IMG/VR virus record: IMGVR_UViG_3300001979_000003
Span: 1 to 44,135 of that record
Direction: 5' to 3' (one strand)
DNA from: a virus
DNA: 44,135 nucleotides
Below the pieces are notes generated by a model. It did not search any database, had not been told where the DNA came from, and was given only the letters and a program-made list of their open reading frames with translations. Positions 5,386 to 15,971 of the stretch are shown here, piece after piece; the stretch's first letter is position 1; the number at the start of each line of letters is the position of its first letter. The translations under genes and the position numbers were made by a program.

Positions 5386-6234
5386 ATGAACGCCACCTAT
5401 AATTCTCTTATGATAGAGAGCCCTGTTCATCTGACTTATACCTTAGACGCGAAAGAGCCTGTCGAGCTCGGCAACTTTGTCGCCCAGTTCGTGGCCATTG
5501 GAAATGAATTTGAGCGCTTTGTAAAAGAGCATCACAAAGACCTTGCGGCAGACGCTACTTTCTTTGTCAAGGATGTGCGCAAAGGCTCTACAATCGTCGA
5601 CATGATTCCGGGAATGGCTGTCGCGGCGCCTTTCATCGCGAATGCCGACCAAATCCTGATCGTTGAGGACTTCGTTCGTCGCTGGGGCGGTAGACTGACG
5701 GCATTAATCAACGATAAGCGCGAAGGTGCCCCGAATACAAAGTCCGAGTTGAAAGACTTTTCAAAAGCAGTTGTCGCCGTGGCGCGGGATCCTGATGCCA
5801 CATCGAGACTTGAGGCCGCGACGTTCGAGGACGGCAAACGGAAAATCCGCGCGAGCTTCGTTTTCAATACTCATGATGCAAGAGCAGCCGAAAAAGTCAT
5901 TGAGCATCGGCAGCACGAACTTGAGAAGCCATCTCAGGATCAATATGAGCGTGTACTCATGGTATTCACGCGAAGCGATGTTCACGCAGTGGCAGTCGGG
6001 CGCCCGTCGGGTGAAAAGGTCTTAATCGAGGAGATATCCGACAAGCCCCTAAGTCTGACGTATGGATCAGACTTGGCAGAGCAGAAACTCAAGCATGAAA
6101 TCCGAGAAGCCGACGACAATGTCTACAAGAAGGGCTTCATCGTCGATGTTCAGACCAAAATGAGCAGAGGTAAGGCTGTCGCATACGCAGTGACCCACGT
6201 TCACGATGTAATCGACATTGATCAAGAAGGTTAG
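5386..6234 (+). CDS. Unknown immunity-region cargo protein, 282 aa
   Basis: Start taken at ATG 5386 with AGGG about 8 nt upstream; a TTG extension of 11 codons is possible. The protein begins MNATYNSLMIESPVHLTYTL, carries a hydrophobic stretch near residues 74-90 (TIVDMIPGMAVAAPFI) and a mixed alpha/beta C-terminal half. I recognise no domain. Its TAG overlaps the repressor TAA tail to tail (6231-6234). Codon use and lower GC than the structural genes suggest recent acquisition. The position between the left operators and the repressor corresponds to lambda rexAB, so an exclusion or lysogenic-conversion role is a reasonable hypothesis, not a demonstration. Confidence 0.75.
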   Translation: MNATYNSLMIESPVHLTYTLDAKEPVELGNFVAQFVAIGNEFERFVKEHHKDLAADATFFVKDVRKGSTIVDMIPGMAVAAPFIANADQILIVEDFVRRWGGRLTALINDKREGAPNTKSELKDFSKAVVAVARDPDATSRLEAATFEDGKRKIRASFVFNTHDARAAEKVIEHRQHELEKPSQDQYERVLMVFTRSDVHAVAVGRPSGEKVLIEEISDKPLSLTYGSDLAEQKLKHEIREADDNVYKKGFIVDVQTKMSRGKAVAYAVTHVHDVIDIDQEG

Positions 6235-6926
6235 AATCCTGGCATCTCATTCATGACACGCCGAACCAGCGCAATAACTGCGACCCTCACGCCTTCGTCG
6301 GCCTCATGATCTCGGCGAACGACGATCGGCTTATGCTTCGGGTTCGTCGATCGGGGATGAAATTCTGCGCGGTCTGTAAATAGCTCGAGCTGCTTCACCG
6401 ACCATTCCCGGAAATGGCCGCCGTCGCGCTCTCTCTGTACAACAACGATCATTCCTGACCGCAGTTCGACCAAGTGCTCGACGTCTTCGTAGGCGATGCC
6501 GACGAGCCGGCTGCCTGGAAATATAGGGAGAGGGCGCAGATCATTCATGCTGTCGCCGGCGACATCAAACACGAGTTGCCTGGCGTTCGGAAACAGTTCG
6601 TCGCGCGGCAGGGCAATTTCCACCGGCTCCGACTGATCGAATTCATCGACCTCTCGGAAAGCGCCGGCCTCAACGATACCCGCAACCCGGCCGATCGTCA
6701 TAGCCGGGACAACCTGCTTCACTTCAGAATTTGGAAGCGGCCGGTCAAGGTATTCGGCGATCTTCGGAATCTCATGGACCTTTAGATTTCGACGCCCCTT
6801 CAACAGCTGAGTGATTTGCGGGTGCGCAATGCCCAGATGATGGGCAAGCCCGATCTGCGTCTTCCCAGGCTGCGCAAGCCCTTCGCGGATCCACTCAAGA
6901 TATTGGTTTGTAAACTCGTCAGCCAT
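6231..6926 (-). CDS. CI/LexA-like phage repressor with S24 peptidase domain
   Basis: The product is 231 residues from ATG 6926. Residues 1-60 form an XRE helix-turn-helix (KTQIGLAHHLGIAHPQITQL). The C-terminal half is an S24 domain: Ser126 in GDSM and Lys178 in SVKQL form the likely Ser/Lys dyad, and Ala-Gly pairs at 82-83 and 87-88 are candidate autocleavage sites. It should bind the ATGTAYG-N5-CRTACAT operators and be inactivated by RecA during the SOS response. It is divergent from the Cro-like gene across the 94-bp operator region. No Shine-Dalgarno is visible before the ATG; a TTG eight codons upstream is an alternative start. Confidence 0.9.
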   Translation of the reverse strand: MADEFTNQYLEWIREGLAQPGKTQIGLAHHLGIAHPQITQLLKGRRNLKVHEIPKIAEYLDRPLPNSEVKQVVPAMTIGRVAGIVEAGAFREVDEFDQSEPVEIALPRDELFPNARQLVFDVAGDSMNDLRPLPIFPGSRLVGIAYEDVEHLVELRSGMIVVVQRERDGGHFREWSVKQLELFTDRAEFHPRSTNPKHKPIVVRRDHEADEGVRVAVIALVRRVMNEMPGF

Positions 6927-6959
6927 TGTTTGATTTTCGCACAAGCGCAAAATCGGCGC

Positions 6960-9329: not shown

Positions 9330-11471
9330 ATGCAGAACGGCGTACCATTGATCGTTGATAGTTTCGCGGGCGGCGGCGGCGCGTCCACGGGTATCGAGAT
9401 GGCTCTTGGCCGCTCGCCCGATATTGCGATCAACCACAACGCCGACGCGCTGGCGCTGCATGCTGCAAATCATCCGGAGACGCTTCACCTGTCGGAGAAC
9501 ATCTTCAAGGTCGACCCGCTCGATTATGTCGCGGGCAAGCATGTCGGCCTCGCTTGGTTCAGCCCAGATTGTAAGCATTTCTCCAAGGCCAAAGGCGGCA
9601 AGCCTGTTGAGCGCAATATCCGCGATCTGGCTTGGGTGATCGTGCTCTGGGCCGAGCGCGCCAAGCCCGACGTCATCATTATGGAGAACGTCGAGGAGTG
9701 GAAGGAATGGGGTCCGCTCATTGAGACGAATAAGGGTCTGATGCCTTGCCCTGAGAGCAGGGGACAAACGTTCCAGAAGTGGTGCAAGGCGATGAAGCGG
9801 GCAGGGTACAAGCTGCAGCATCGCGAGCTTAGGGCTTGCGACTATGGCGCGCCGACCATCCGCAAACGCCTCTTCGTCATCGCGCGCCGAGACGGTCAGC
9901 CGATTGTCTGGCCTGAGCCGACGCATGGCGCGCCGACGGATCGCGATGTCATCGCAGGTCAGAAGAAGCCTTGGCGGACTGCCGCCGAGATTATCGACTG
10001 GTCACTACCTTGCCCCTCAATTTTCGACACCTCAGGCGAGATCATGCAGAAGCACGGGCTCCGAGCTATCCGCCCGCTGGCTGACGCCACTATGGCCCGC
10101 GTGGCTCGCGGCACGAAACGATATGTGCTGGACGCGGCTCGGCCGTTCCTTGTCCAAACAGGCTATGGGGAGCGAAAAGGCCAGGATCCGCGCTGCCTTG
10201 ACGGCGACGCGCCGCTCGGAACGGTGGTCGCCGGCGGCGTCAAGCATGCGCTCATCTCACCTTCAGTGACCCGGTTCAACACCGGCGCGACCGGCAGCGC
10301 CATGGACGAGCCCGCTCCGACGGTCACGGCGAACAGCTACATCAAGAAGCCGGGTGGCGCTGCGCCGCTAGGGGTGATCGCTCCGAGCCTATCGGCCTTC
10401 TACGGCCCCGGTGCTGGTGGCAAGGATCGGTCTGCCAGCGCAGAGGAGCCGGTTCGCGTCGTCACGACCGAGAACCGTCACGCCGTCGTCGCCCCACACC
10501 TAATGACGATGCGCAATTCTGGGAAGCCGTTCAATGGAGCGGATGAGCCGACACACACGATCACCGCCGGCGGCGCTGGCCTTTCCGTCGTCGCACCAGT
10601 GCTGACTTATGCGCAGCAGGGCGGCGCAAACCGCTCTGCCGAAGATCCGCACCACACCATCACCGCCAGCAAGAAAGACCAGAACGCGGTCATCATCCCG
10701 ACGTTGGTCGGTTGCGGCGGCCGTGCAGGCCAGAGCCGCCCGCGTGGTGGCGACGAACCGCTGGCGACAGTAACGGCAAAGGCTGATGTTTGCACGGCTG
10801 CCGTTTTCGTGGCCCAGCACAACAACGACAGCCGTCGCATCGGCGGTGTAAACCCTGGCCGCGAAGCTTCAGAGCCAATGTCCACCGTGACGGCCACCGG
10901 CGCACAGCAAGGTGTCGTCTCGGCATTTGTCTCCCGGCAGTTTGGCGCAAGCATCGGCCATGGCGCTGACGAGCCGTCGGCAACATTAACCGCTGGCGTC
11001 AATAAGTCGGCACTCGTAGCGCCGCATCTCCATGCTTATTACGGCTCAGATCAGGACACGCCGGAAGATGAGCCGTTCCACACGATCACCACCAAGCCCA
11101 GGTTCAGCCACGTCGAGGCGGCGATTAGCGCGCCGCCATTCACGCATGACCAGTATGACCGCGCCCGCGAGGTTGCCGACTTCCTCCGCTCCTATGGTTT
11201 CTGGGATGATCGCGAGTTCGTCACTCTGATCATCGACGACGCCGAATTTGTCATCGTCGACATCGGCATGCGGATGCTCACGCCGCGCGAACTGTATTCG
11301 GCGCAAGGCTTCCCGGTCGACTACCAGATCGATGCTGATGCCAACGGCCGCCCGTTTCCGAAGAACGTCCAGGTCTCGTGTGTCGGCAACTCCGTTTCAC
11401 CGCCGGTCGCCGCCGCCATCGTCGCGGCCAACTGCCAGCATCTCGTCGAGTATCGCGAGGCTGCCGAATGA
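9330..11471 (+). CDS. DNA (cytosine-5) methyltransferase with repeat-rich target domain
   Basis: The product is 713 residues. Motif I is VDSFAGGGGAS (residues 9-19); the catalytic cysteine is Cys81 in SPDCKHFSKA; ENV is at 119-121; motif VIII is YGAPTIRKRLFVIA near 177-190; motifs IX and X are LTPRELYSAQGFP and GNSVSPPVAAAI at the C-terminus. It transfers methyl from SAM to C5 of cytosine, presumably to protect phage DNA from restriction. Between VIII and IX (residues 272-599) are nine copies of a DEPxxTVTA-type unit, far more than the one or two of ordinary enzymes. AGAGGGG precedes the start. A solitary enzyme: no cognate endonuclease is visible. Confidence 0.93.
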   Translation: MQNGVPLIVDSFAGGGGASTGIEMALGRSPDIAINHNADALALHAANHPETLHLSENIFKVDPLDYVAGKHVGLAWFSPDCKHFSKAKGGKPVERNIRDLAWVIVLWAERAKPDVIIMENVEEWKEWGPLIETNKGLMPCPESRGQTFQKWCKAMKRAGYKLQHRELRACDYGAPTIRKRLFVIARRDGQPIVWPEPTHGAPTDRDVIAGQKKPWRTAAEIIDWSLPCPSIFDTSGEIMQKHGLRAIRPLADATMARVARGTKRYVLDAARPFLVQTGYGERKGQDPRCLDGDAPLGTVVAGGVKHALISPSVTRFNTGATGSAMDEPAPTVTANSYIKKPGGAAPLGVIAPSLSAFYGPGAGGKDRSASAEEPVRVVTTENRHAVVAPHLMTMRNSGKPFNGADEPTHTITAGGAGLSVVAPVLTYAQQGGANRSAEDPHHTITASKKDQNAVIIPTLVGCGGRAGQSRPRGGDEPLATVTAKADVCTAAVFVAQHNNDSRRIGGVNPGREASEPMSTVTATGAQQGVVSAFVSRQFGASIGHGADEPSATLTAGVNKSALVAPHLHAYYGSDQDTPEDEPFHTITTKPRFSHVEAAISAPPFTHDQYDRAREVADFLRSYGFWDDREFVTLIIDDAEFVIVDIGMRMLTPRELYSAQGFPVDYQIDADANGRPFPKNVQVSCVGNSVSPPVAAAIVAANCQHLVEYREAAE
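10143..11126 (+). repeat. Nine degenerate tandem repeats in the methyltransferase target domain
   Basis: Residues 272-599 consist of nine units of about 33-41 residues, each ending [D/E/S][E/A/D]Px[x]T[V/I]T[A/T] followed by 4-13 residues and a hydrophobic VVAPxL-like junction. Examples of the core are DEPAPTVTA, DEPTHTITA, EDPHHTITA, DEPLATVTA, SEPMSTVTA, DEPSATLTA and DEPFHTITT. The units are conserved as protein but clearly diverged as DNA. Confidence 0.85.
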
Positions 11472-14042: not shown

Positions 14043-14523
14043 CGATCACGTTTCGAAATCGATCCGCTCGCTTCTCGCCGCCGGCCTGGCGCTACCCAGC
14101 GGAATGGATCCGGACAAAGCCCCAGATATCTTCGGGTTTGCCCTCGCTGGCGTGTCGAGCTGCGGTGTCCAAAAGGCAACCACCAGGATTATCCGCGGCG
14201 AATACGAGATCAATCGCGCCTTCGTGCCAACGCCACCAGAATTCGCCGCGCTCGCCCGCAAAGAGGCGCTGGCAATTCGTGCCGATCTTAATCGTCTGCA
14301 ACTGACGAAGGAATCGATGCTGGACGCGAGGCCGCACGAGAAGACGGACGCGGCGCAGATGGCAAAAATCCGTGATCTTGTCAGCCGCTTCAAGCAGCAG
14401 AACCCGGCGGCAGAACGCTGTTATGCGGCACCCGTAAAGGAGCCGATGACGCAGGAGCAGGAAGAATATTGGGCAAAGATCGCTGCGCTCCCGCCGGCAG
14501 GAGGCCAGAATGAAACCGTCTGA
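13963..14523 (+). CDS. Hypothetical replication-associated protein, 186 aa
   Basis: Start at ATG 13963 with AGGAAAA about 10 nt upstream, which places 80 bp inside the DUF1376 gene. The INRAFVPTPPEFAALARKEA segment at about residues 84-103 resembles the C-terminal part of phage helicase-loader-like proteins that often follow an initiator. The C-terminus is polar. By position it could be a helicase loader (lambda P analogue), but no Walker motif is present and none is needed for the P type. Family not recognised with confidence. Confidence 0.7.
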   Translation: MTNLPATLSTLDQQIGELADQLEPVTDDHVSKSIRSLLAAGLALPSGMDPDKAPDIFGFALAGVSSCGVQKATTRIIRGEYEINRAFVPTPPEFAALARKEALAIRADLNRLQLTKESMLDARPHEKTDAAQMAKIRDLVSRFKQQNPAAERCYAAPVKEPMTQEQEEYWAKIAALPPAGGQNETV

Positions 14524-14860
14524 CATTCGCCGCGTGGGCCTCAAGGATGAGGTTATCCGGCTCCACTTCGAAAACCCTGAAGCCACGACGGACGAAATCG
14601 CGGCCGCGCTTGGTGCAGGCCCTGAGTACGTTCGTTGCACATTTCGGCGCAATGGCCTGAAGGCGATAAGGAAAAAGGATCGCGAGGCAAAGCCTATCGA
14701 AGCGAAGCCGCTGCTCTATAGCGCGGCCACGGCGTCCAGACTTCAGCCATTTGCAGAGCGGCGCGGAATTTCCGTCGACCGGCTGATCTACATGCTTCTG
14801 CAAGTCGTCGCGACCGATCGCATGGTTGACGCGATCTTGGATGATGTCGAGGCAGCATGA
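14510..14860 (+). CDS. Helix-turn-helix protein, 116 aa
   Basis: GGAGG lies about 6 nt before ATG 14510. Residues about 10-50 (KDEVIRLHFENPEATTDEIA, then AALGAGPEYVRCTFRRNG) form a trihelical helix-turn-helix like that of small phage transcription factors. The C-terminal half, LQPFAERRGISVDRLIYMLL, is a second helical unit. It could bind the replication origin or regulate the middle and late genes. No named family. Confidence 0.72.
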   Translation: MKPSDIRRVGLKDEVIRLHFENPEATTDEIAAALGAGPEYVRCTFRRNGLKAIRKKDREAKPIEAKPLLYSAATASRLQPFAERRGISVDRLIYMLLQVVATDRMVDAILDDVEAA

Positions 14861-15078
14861 TCGATATCCCGACCGATAATCTGAAAATCGAGGTATGGCC
14901 GATCCCTGGAATTCATCAGCGTGGCGGCCAGCATGTCGGAACCTATCCCGGCGTCCGCATCACGCATCTGCCTAGCGGCATCCATGCGTATGTCGATATC
15001 GGCCGCTCTCAGCACATCAACAAGATCATCGCCATGGACATGATCTTGGCGGCGATCACTCACCCGAAATTCCGATAA
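14857..15078 (+). CDS. Stand-alone peptide chain release factor GGQ-domain protein
   Basis: The product is 73 residues. DNLKIEVWPIPG is followed by RGGQHV (GGQ at residues 23-25), VRITHLPSGI (about 32-41) and RSQHINKIIAMDMI (about 49-62). This matches domain 3 of class I release factors (RF1: DLRIDV, GGQHVN, IRITHLPTGI, RSQHKNKAKAL), the part that enters the peptidyl-transferase centre and hydrolyses peptidyl-tRNA. The codon-recognition domain is missing, and so is the long basic tail by which ArfB senses the empty mRNA channel. It may rescue stalled ribosomes, act on free peptidyl-tRNA, or interfere with host termination. It is coupled by ATGA to the gene before. Confidence 0.85.
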   Translation: MIDIPTDNLKIEVWPIPGIHQRGGQHVGTYPGVRITHLPSGIHAYVDIGRSQHINKIIAMDMILAAITHPKFR

Positions 15079-15111: not shown

Positions 15112-15774
15112 ATGGTGGACAAGGATTTTCAAGGAATGGATGACAACGAAAAGGCGGCTGAGTTCGAAAGGATGCTCGCAAAAGGGCGGCAGTACCGTGG
15201 AAGCTCGGACTTCAGCATGTGGTTCGCCGTGCGAACAGAGCCTGGCGCGCAGAAGCCGCAGCGTGAATACTCGGTCGAGCCGACGTCGCTTGATAAAGAT
15301 GGCAAGCCGCGCGGCAAGGGCTATCGCATCGTGCCGAGCCTGAACCCAAACCTTTCAGCTATCGAAAGGGCACTGTCGCTCGCTCGTTTTCAATACTGGA
15401 TGCCATCGGAAAAGCGGTTGGTTCGTGATCGGAAGCATACGGACCTATGGAAGGTGCGCCGCTTCGCGCTGATGGTCGGATATGTGTTCGTCCACAATCC
15501 TTATGACTTCGGCGTTCTCGAGCAGGTTCCTGGGGTCGCTGGCGTCGTTAGGAACGCAAATGGCGAGCCTTTGGCTATAGATTTCCTCGATATTATCAAG
15601 GTGCGTGCTGCCGAAGCAGATGCTGAAGTTGAGTTCGATCATCGGTCAAGAATGGCACGCCAAAATCTCCGCAAACGCGCGAAGGAAGATCCACGCCTCA
15701 GGATGTTAGCCGCAAAACTTGACATCGCTGGCACGCTGACAGTTCCATTGGAAAAGTTGGGGACAGCCGCTTGA
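15112..15774 (+). CDS. NusG-like (NGN-domain) transcription factor
   Basis: The product is 220 residues. MWFAVRTEPGAQKPQ (about residues 36-50), ERALSLARFQYWMPSEKR, RRFALMVGYVFVHNPYDFGV and EQVPGVAGVVRNANGEPLAI follow the NGN-domain pattern of NusG/RfaH (W-x-V-R-T-x-PG, the GYVFV strand, the PGV-x-GVV turn). A roughly 30-residue insert with DKDGKPRGKGYRIVPSLNPN separates the first strand from the helix. No C-terminal KOW domain is visible; a basic helical region takes its place. It is the last gene of the rightward early operon, just before a terminator, and is a candidate processive antiterminator for the late genes. GAGGG lies about 9 nt before the ATG. Confidence 0.82.
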   Translation: MVDKDFQGMDDNEKAAEFERMLAKGRQYRGSSDFSMWFAVRTEPGAQKPQREYSVEPTSLDKDGKPRGKGYRIVPSLNPNLSAIERALSLARFQYWMPSEKRLVRDRKHTDLWKVRRFALMVGYVFVHNPYDFGVLEQVPGVAGVVRNANGEPLAIDFLDIIKVRAAEADAEVEFDHRSRMARQNLRKRAKEDPRLRMLAAKLDIAGTLTVPLEKLGTAA

Positions 15775-15894: not shown

Positions 15895-15971
15895 GTCGGA
15901 GTAGAGCAGCCCGGTAGCTCGCCAGCCTCATAAGCTGGAGGCCGCAGGTTCGAATCCTGCCTCCGCAACCA
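15895..15971 (+). tRNA. tRNA-Met-like (CAT anticodon), 77 nt with encoded CCA
   Basis: D stem GAGC (15904-15907)/GCTC (15917-15920); anticodon stem CCAGC (15922-15926)/GCTGG (15934-15938) around CTCATAA with anticodon CAT at 15929-15931; T arm GCAGG-TTCGAAT-CCTGC (15944-15960); acceptor 3' strand CTCCGCA, discriminator A and CCA at 15961-15971. The D arm and 77-nt length resemble an initiator tRNA, but the three G:C pairs next to the anticodon loop are absent and the top two acceptor pairs (G1-A72, T2-C71) are mismatched. Confidence 0.85.

Follow-up and report, generated by a model that had tools for sequence, protein, structure and literature searches.

A phage gene encoding little more than the GGQ domain of a release factor, a candidate codon-independent peptidyl-tRNA hydrolase

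A virus record from IMG/VR (44135 bases; the whole stretch that was analysed, hereafter the window) encodes a 73-residue protein that, judged by sequence comparison and structure prediction, is domain 3 of the release factors RF1/RF2 and little else. Comparison with its relatives indicates that this mini release factor (mini-RF) is a real and strongly conserved gene. Its most likely function, which we propose tentatively and rate somewhat short of an even chance, would be that of a codon-independent peptidyl-tRNA hydrolase at the catalytic centre of the large ribosomal subunit.

The mini-RF is an isolated release-factor domain

The gene and the motifs within it are as follows.

14857..15078, + strand: gene of the mini-RF, whose 73-aa product consists solely of the RF-1 (GGQ) domain (open reading frame with ATG start, profile matches, predicted fold, relatives)
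14908..14916, + strand: three-codon insert before GGQ (G18-I19-H20 in the alignment), present in the inner clade only (alignments)
14923..14931, + strand: GGQ motif, unchanged throughout the alignment of 23 family members and also in a clade of 24
14953..14982, + strand: VRITHLPSGI strand, common to RF1/RF2 domain 3 (alignments and predicted structure)
15004..15024, + strand: RSQHINK, start of the domain-3 helix, common to RF1/RF2 (alignments and predicted structure)
15034..15075, + strand: family-specific C terminus MDMILAAITHPKFR, with conservation close to that of GGQ and no resemblance to RF1/RF2

The protein encoded by 14857-15078 (+) is MIDIPTDNLKIEVWPIPGIHQRGGQHVGTYPGVRITHLPSGIHAYVDIGRSQHINKIIAMDMILAAITHPKFR, and the window holds no second RF-1 match. 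Pfam PF00472 (RF-1) matches residues 2-68 with an E-value of 8.7e-9 and 35.8 bits, narrowly exceeding the cut-off of 35. Partial matches were obtained with the NCBIfam models prfB/prfA and prfH (E 5e-10 to 1e-8), and phmmer against PDB chains aligned E. coli RF1/RF2 from residue 3-8 to 67 (E ~5e-6). Together with the presence of GGQ, VRITHLPSGI and RSQHINK, these matches bear out the claim of an earlier note, made from the sequence alone, that the product corresponds to RF1/RF2 domain 3 throughout. The NCBIfam prfA/prfB scores are ~39 bits against cut-offs of 370-423, which leaves the protein outside the class-I factors defined by codon recognition, and the prfH score of 34.9 bits against a cut-off of 166.65 leaves it outside PrfH. 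The phage profile phrog_20323 matches weakly (E 6.6e-7, 30.1 bits) and over residues 21-62 only.

The same note held that both the stop-codon-reading domain and an ArfB-type tail are missing, and both statements stand. The 73 residues contain no codon-reading domain, profile searches of the upstream open reading frame (14510-14860) returned no RF match, and five residues follow the modelled helix (H52-68), leaving no C-terminal tail. Because the other RF domains are missing, the mini-RF should not read stop codons.

An AlphaFold2 model built from 24 sequences has three strands and one helix, with a mean pLDDT of 79, a pTM of 0.65, and a pLDDT of ~60 in the GGQ loop. In a fold search of the PDB, the best matches were all RF1/RF2 (query TM ~0.7), with C12orf65 (2rsm) and PrfH ranked lower, and the best matches in a viral structure library include short phage RF-1 proteins. 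The structure prediction proposed as a check thus came out as the fold of RF domain 3.

The family is under purifying selection

Scans of viral contigs and genomes recovered family members of about the same protein size on 22 viral contigs and at seven genome loci, three of which come from one genome. Two other genome matches (L048 and L049) were rejected, being a full RF and an apparently unrelated open reading frame, and further relatives are L053, L054, and L069-L071. Many tblastn matches in a phage collection lay in unannotated records or were labelled like host prfA/prfB; these were excluded as phage genes. Within host-family genomes the gene is rare (2/395, both previously found), which marks it as an accessory phage gene. 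Most genome contigs with relatives belong to Rhizobiales, which makes a rhizobial host probable.

Measured against the window sequence, dN/dS ranges from 0.06 to 0.19, and the median over 66 pairs is 0.15. G23, G24, and Q25 are the same throughout an alignment of 23 coding sequences, although synonymous substitutions occur in the codons of both glycines, so that the conservation of GGQ in close homologues expected by the earlier note is found both here and in the clade of 24 described below. The other invariant residues are G28, T36, H37, A44, R50, Q52, I58, A59, M62, I63, T68, and P70. Among them are the RF core residues R50, Q52, T36, and H37; N55 and K/R56 are mostly kept. One copy (L034, ~5001-5223 of contig 2825280708_000002; same site in L017 and G009) carries a frameshift early in the gene, and intact copies are present in other phages.

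A short gene that lacks the other RF domains might be read as a functionless, decayed fragment of a full RF gene. The selection signal contradicts this: the product has the same size in many phages, the median dN/dS is low, GGQ is invariant, and no RF remnant lies upstream. We therefore consider decay scarcely credible.

Altered GGQ loops and a family-specific C terminus

The earlier note had described an insert of about three residues before GGQ. The loop is indeed three residues longer than in both RF1 and RF2; however, in outer members (L035-L039 and L069-L071) the insert is missing entirely or for the most part, which makes it a feature of the inner clade only. A second change, which the note did not mention, lies after the motif, where the loop is one residue shorter than in RF1/RF2 and Gly stands in place of the N-K or N-T found in GGQHVN(K/T). 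The last stretch of invariant residues has no counterpart in RF1/RF2, and this family-specific C terminus may be a docking surface.

Related phage proteins with and without GGQ

Annotated phage RF-1-domain proteins range from 64 to ~190 aa. As proteins of this kind are already annotated, the idea is less new than the earlier note assumed; among open-licence full texts, we found no functional study of phage GGQ-domain proteins. The Otagovirus RF-1 proteins (L085, L087, L089, and L073) have GGM in place of GGQ and, behind the RF-1 domain, a C-terminal domain of ribosomal protein L12 (PF00542, above its cut-off in three of the four), a fusion that, from sequence, ties this branch to the ribosome. 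GGQ is also absent from the RF-1 proteins of Pseudomonas phages 73 and LPPA15, Acinetobacter phages 133, Berthold, and Ac42, Vibrio phages K412 and 249E41-1, and Rhizobium phage IC12, and is replaced by GGM in L053 and GGL in L054. Phages thus retain the fold without the catalytic motif. A GGQ-containing RF-1 protein was also noted in the Mycobacterium prophage prophiT49-2 (L078), where it lies in a tRNA cluster near an RtcB-like ligase gene.

A scan for RSQHxNK, in which GGQ was not used as bait, gave 64 stretches, a biased sample because CGN and TCN codons were required. Most were tail-less proteins like the mini-RF, proteins extending ~65-75 residues beyond the motif, PrfH-sized proteins of ~200 aa, Otagovirus types, or full RFs; a few were chance matches. 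The tail-less proteins all carry GGQ except L099, which has GGM.

In a tree of 67 columns and 61 rows, with many deep forks unresolved, the window falls in a supported clade of 24 rows that all carry GGQ (96/90). A separate supported group (98/88) comprises the Otagovirus GGM proteins, L099, and the Boevelstad protein, which has GGQ. On the starred branches, the GGQ state must have changed three times or more.

Loss of GGQ in several related proteins makes a non-catalytic role possible for the wider group. The mini-RF could accordingly be a non-hydrolytic plug that sits in the A site or peptidyl transferase centre of the large subunit, using GGQ for packing rather than turnover. It would then either delay or prevent termination or elongation in the host, or protect the centre. 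The repeated changes on the tree fit such a plug, as does the retention of a GGQ-less domain in the Otagovirus, septimatrevirus, Acinetobacter, Vibrio, and Rhizobium phage IC12 proteins and in L053 and L054; moreover, the Gln side chain of GGQ contributes to packing within the peptidyl transferase centre (PMC5799190). However, a plug would not obviously require the GGQ that is invariant in the window's own clade, and weak affinity would be expected of it without an anchor. We regard the plug as an unlikely but serious alternative.

Gene neighbourhood

Three features flank the mini-RF gene.

14510..14860, + strand: upstream gene, 116 aa, no confident family, with a 4-nt overlap (ATGA) with the mini-RF start (open reading frame list, profile searches)
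15112..15774, + strand: downstream gene, NusG-type transcription antiterminator (phrog_25909, PF02357; profile searches)
15895..15971, + strand: tRNA-Met(CAT) with an initiator-type unpaired 1:72 position (tRNA search)

The ATGA overlap was rejected as a special coupling, since 4-nt overlaps also occur in other gene pairs of the window. A NusG-type gene lies next downstream only in the window, L019, L020 (near-copy L021), L031, L032, and L033 (near-copy L043); in the other phages the downstream neighbours are other putative regulators, and the upstream genes vary. The putative late regulators beside the mini-RF belong to unrelated families (NusG type, phrog_21451, DUF6362, and phrog_15385), among which a function is stated for the NusG type alone; for the other three, the assignment as late regulators is a reading of position. 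A late regulator as a fixed partner was rejected, as a 'NusG' cluster spanning 10/15 phages had chained unrelated genes via out-of-frame open reading frames overlapping the mini-RF. The location of the mini-RF beside putative late regulators is a matter of position, not timing.

The position directly upstream of putative late regulators from several unrelated families might suggest that the mini-RF no longer works on the ribosome but binds a different RNA, perhaps in a regulatory role connected with the late-gene switch. We find this very improbable: the invariance of GGQ is hard to explain outside the peptidyl transferase centre, and the neighbours are non-homologous and differ in the outer members.

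Across the 15 phages compared, the mini-RF is the sole family common to all (14 by clustering; the copy in the 15th is frameshifted). This bears on a further possibility, that the mini-RF is a catalytic subunit whose anchor is supplied by a partner, as in RF2/ArfA and mtRF-R/MTRES1. The dependence of ArfB binding on its tail (PMC3950681), the conservation of the C-terminal ITHPKF beyond the needs of RF domain 3, and the fused L12 domain of the Otagovirus relatives, possibly a built-in recruiter, all point in this direction. However, no candidate partner was found among the compared phages, which have no second gene in common, so a partner would have to be encoded by the host, and a host protein is indeed the likeliest form it would take. 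On balance, we consider a partner-dependent subunit rather improbable.

Initiator-type tRNA-Met(CAT) genes also lie 3' of the mini-RF in L020 (6858-6934), L028 (5890-5966), and L033 (6188-6264), and likewise in L021; the unpaired 1:72 position is G-A or C-A. Both tRNA-Met and tRNA-fMet genes have been reported in phiLM21-like prophages of Sinorhizobium (PMC12429752). In L032, a tRNA gene with a CTA anticodon (6078-6151) is found near the mini-RF. Stop-codon recoding in that phage was rejected, as TAG serves there as an ordinary stop (15/49 long open reading frames). Elsewhere in the window, an HTH and S24 repressor-like protein (6231-6950, - strand) and an ERF recombinase (1522-2250, - strand) are consistent with a temperate phage, and a 713-aa open reading frame (9330-11471) begins with a stretch resembling a DNA cytosine methyltransferase and appears to contain repeated ADEP-type segments.

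Proposed function

For the mini-RF as a hydrolase, we infer its ribosome binding, hydrolysis, substrate, timing, and benefit as follows. The stand-alone domain 3 would enter the A site of the large subunit, with its conserved core and the family-specific C terminus as docking surfaces, and would place GGQ in the peptidyl transferase centre, where peptidyl-tRNA would be hydrolysed with no codon being read. Lacking a decoding domain and an mRNA-channel tail, it should act where a 30S anchor is unneeded, namely on split large subunits that still hold peptidyl-tRNA or on stalled ribosomes with an open A site. The phage could benefit from the freeing of stalled ribosomes or from the clearing of host translation at about the time when late genes are turned on.

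Hydrolysis is favoured by the strict selection on GGQ in the mini-RF clade. We also count in its favour the RF-1 match, the RF1/RF2-like model, the low dN/dS, the kept RF core residues, and the finding that the mini-RF alone is common to all 15 phages. The retention of GGQ in tail-less relatives (except L099), the Otagovirus L12 domain, and the precedent of mtRF-R/MTRES1 are further points for it. Against it, the GGQ domain of ArfB without its C-terminal extension shows no detectable ribosome binding or hydrolysis (PMC3950681). This weakens the idea of simple ArfB-like rescue, and by the same analogy the tail-less mini-RF should be weak unless it docks otherwise. The Gly after GGQ, the changed loop lengths on both sides, and the related phage proteins that carry the same domain with GGM, GGL, or no GGQ also count against hydrolysis. 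The stronger proposal, that the 73-aa GGQ domain is self-sufficient and constitutes a minimal release factor by which phages remove nascent chains from ribosomes that are stalled or split, we regard as doubtful.

If the mini-RF alone hydrolyses peptidyl-tRNA, it would be a very small phage tool for clearing ribosomes, and the need of a GGQ domain for a 30S anchor, as drawn from ArfB, would require revision. If it only plugs the A site, it would represent a small phage protein that inhibits or regulates host translation. In both cases, the GGQ-keeping clade and the relatives with GGM and L12 pose a question of RF evolution that is directly testable with small proteins.

Comparison with known systems

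The whole mini-RF aligns with domain 3 of RF1/RF2 (prfA/prfB), including GGQ, VRITHxPxGI, and RSQHxNK, and the predicted fold agrees; it differs in lacking the other RF domains, in its altered GGQ-flanking loops, and in having its own C terminus. With ArfB/YaeJ and mitochondrial ICT1 it shares a GGQ domain without a codon-reading domain, but the basic C-terminal extension that ArfB uses for the mRNA channel is missing. PrfH (RF-H) is likewise a GGQ protein that does not read stop codons, and it gave a partial NCBIfam match and a fold match; however, its model spans 200 positions compared with 73 aa, and the genes inspected around the mini-RF included no RtcB. The mitochondrial factor mtRF-R (C12orf65) is also a small GGQ protein with a matching fold (2rsm), and acts with MTRES1 on large subunits that carry peptidyl-tRNA (PMC8012679). 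It differs in being longer (a solved chain of 115 residues) and in having an S4-domain partner, neither of which was seen for the mini-RF.

The annotated phage RF-1-domain proteins (phrog_20323 and phrog_35727) resemble the mini-RF in being phage-encoded RF-1 domains without a decoding domain. Examples are the proteins of Acinetobacter phage Ac42, Agrobacterium phage OLIVR6, Otagovirus, and Pseudomonas phage 73. Those that were read mostly lack GGQ or have extra parts, whereas members of the mini-RF clade have no tail and an intact GGQ. Among annotated phage proteins, the one closest to the mini-RF in build is that of Boevelstad, with 75 aa and GGQ.
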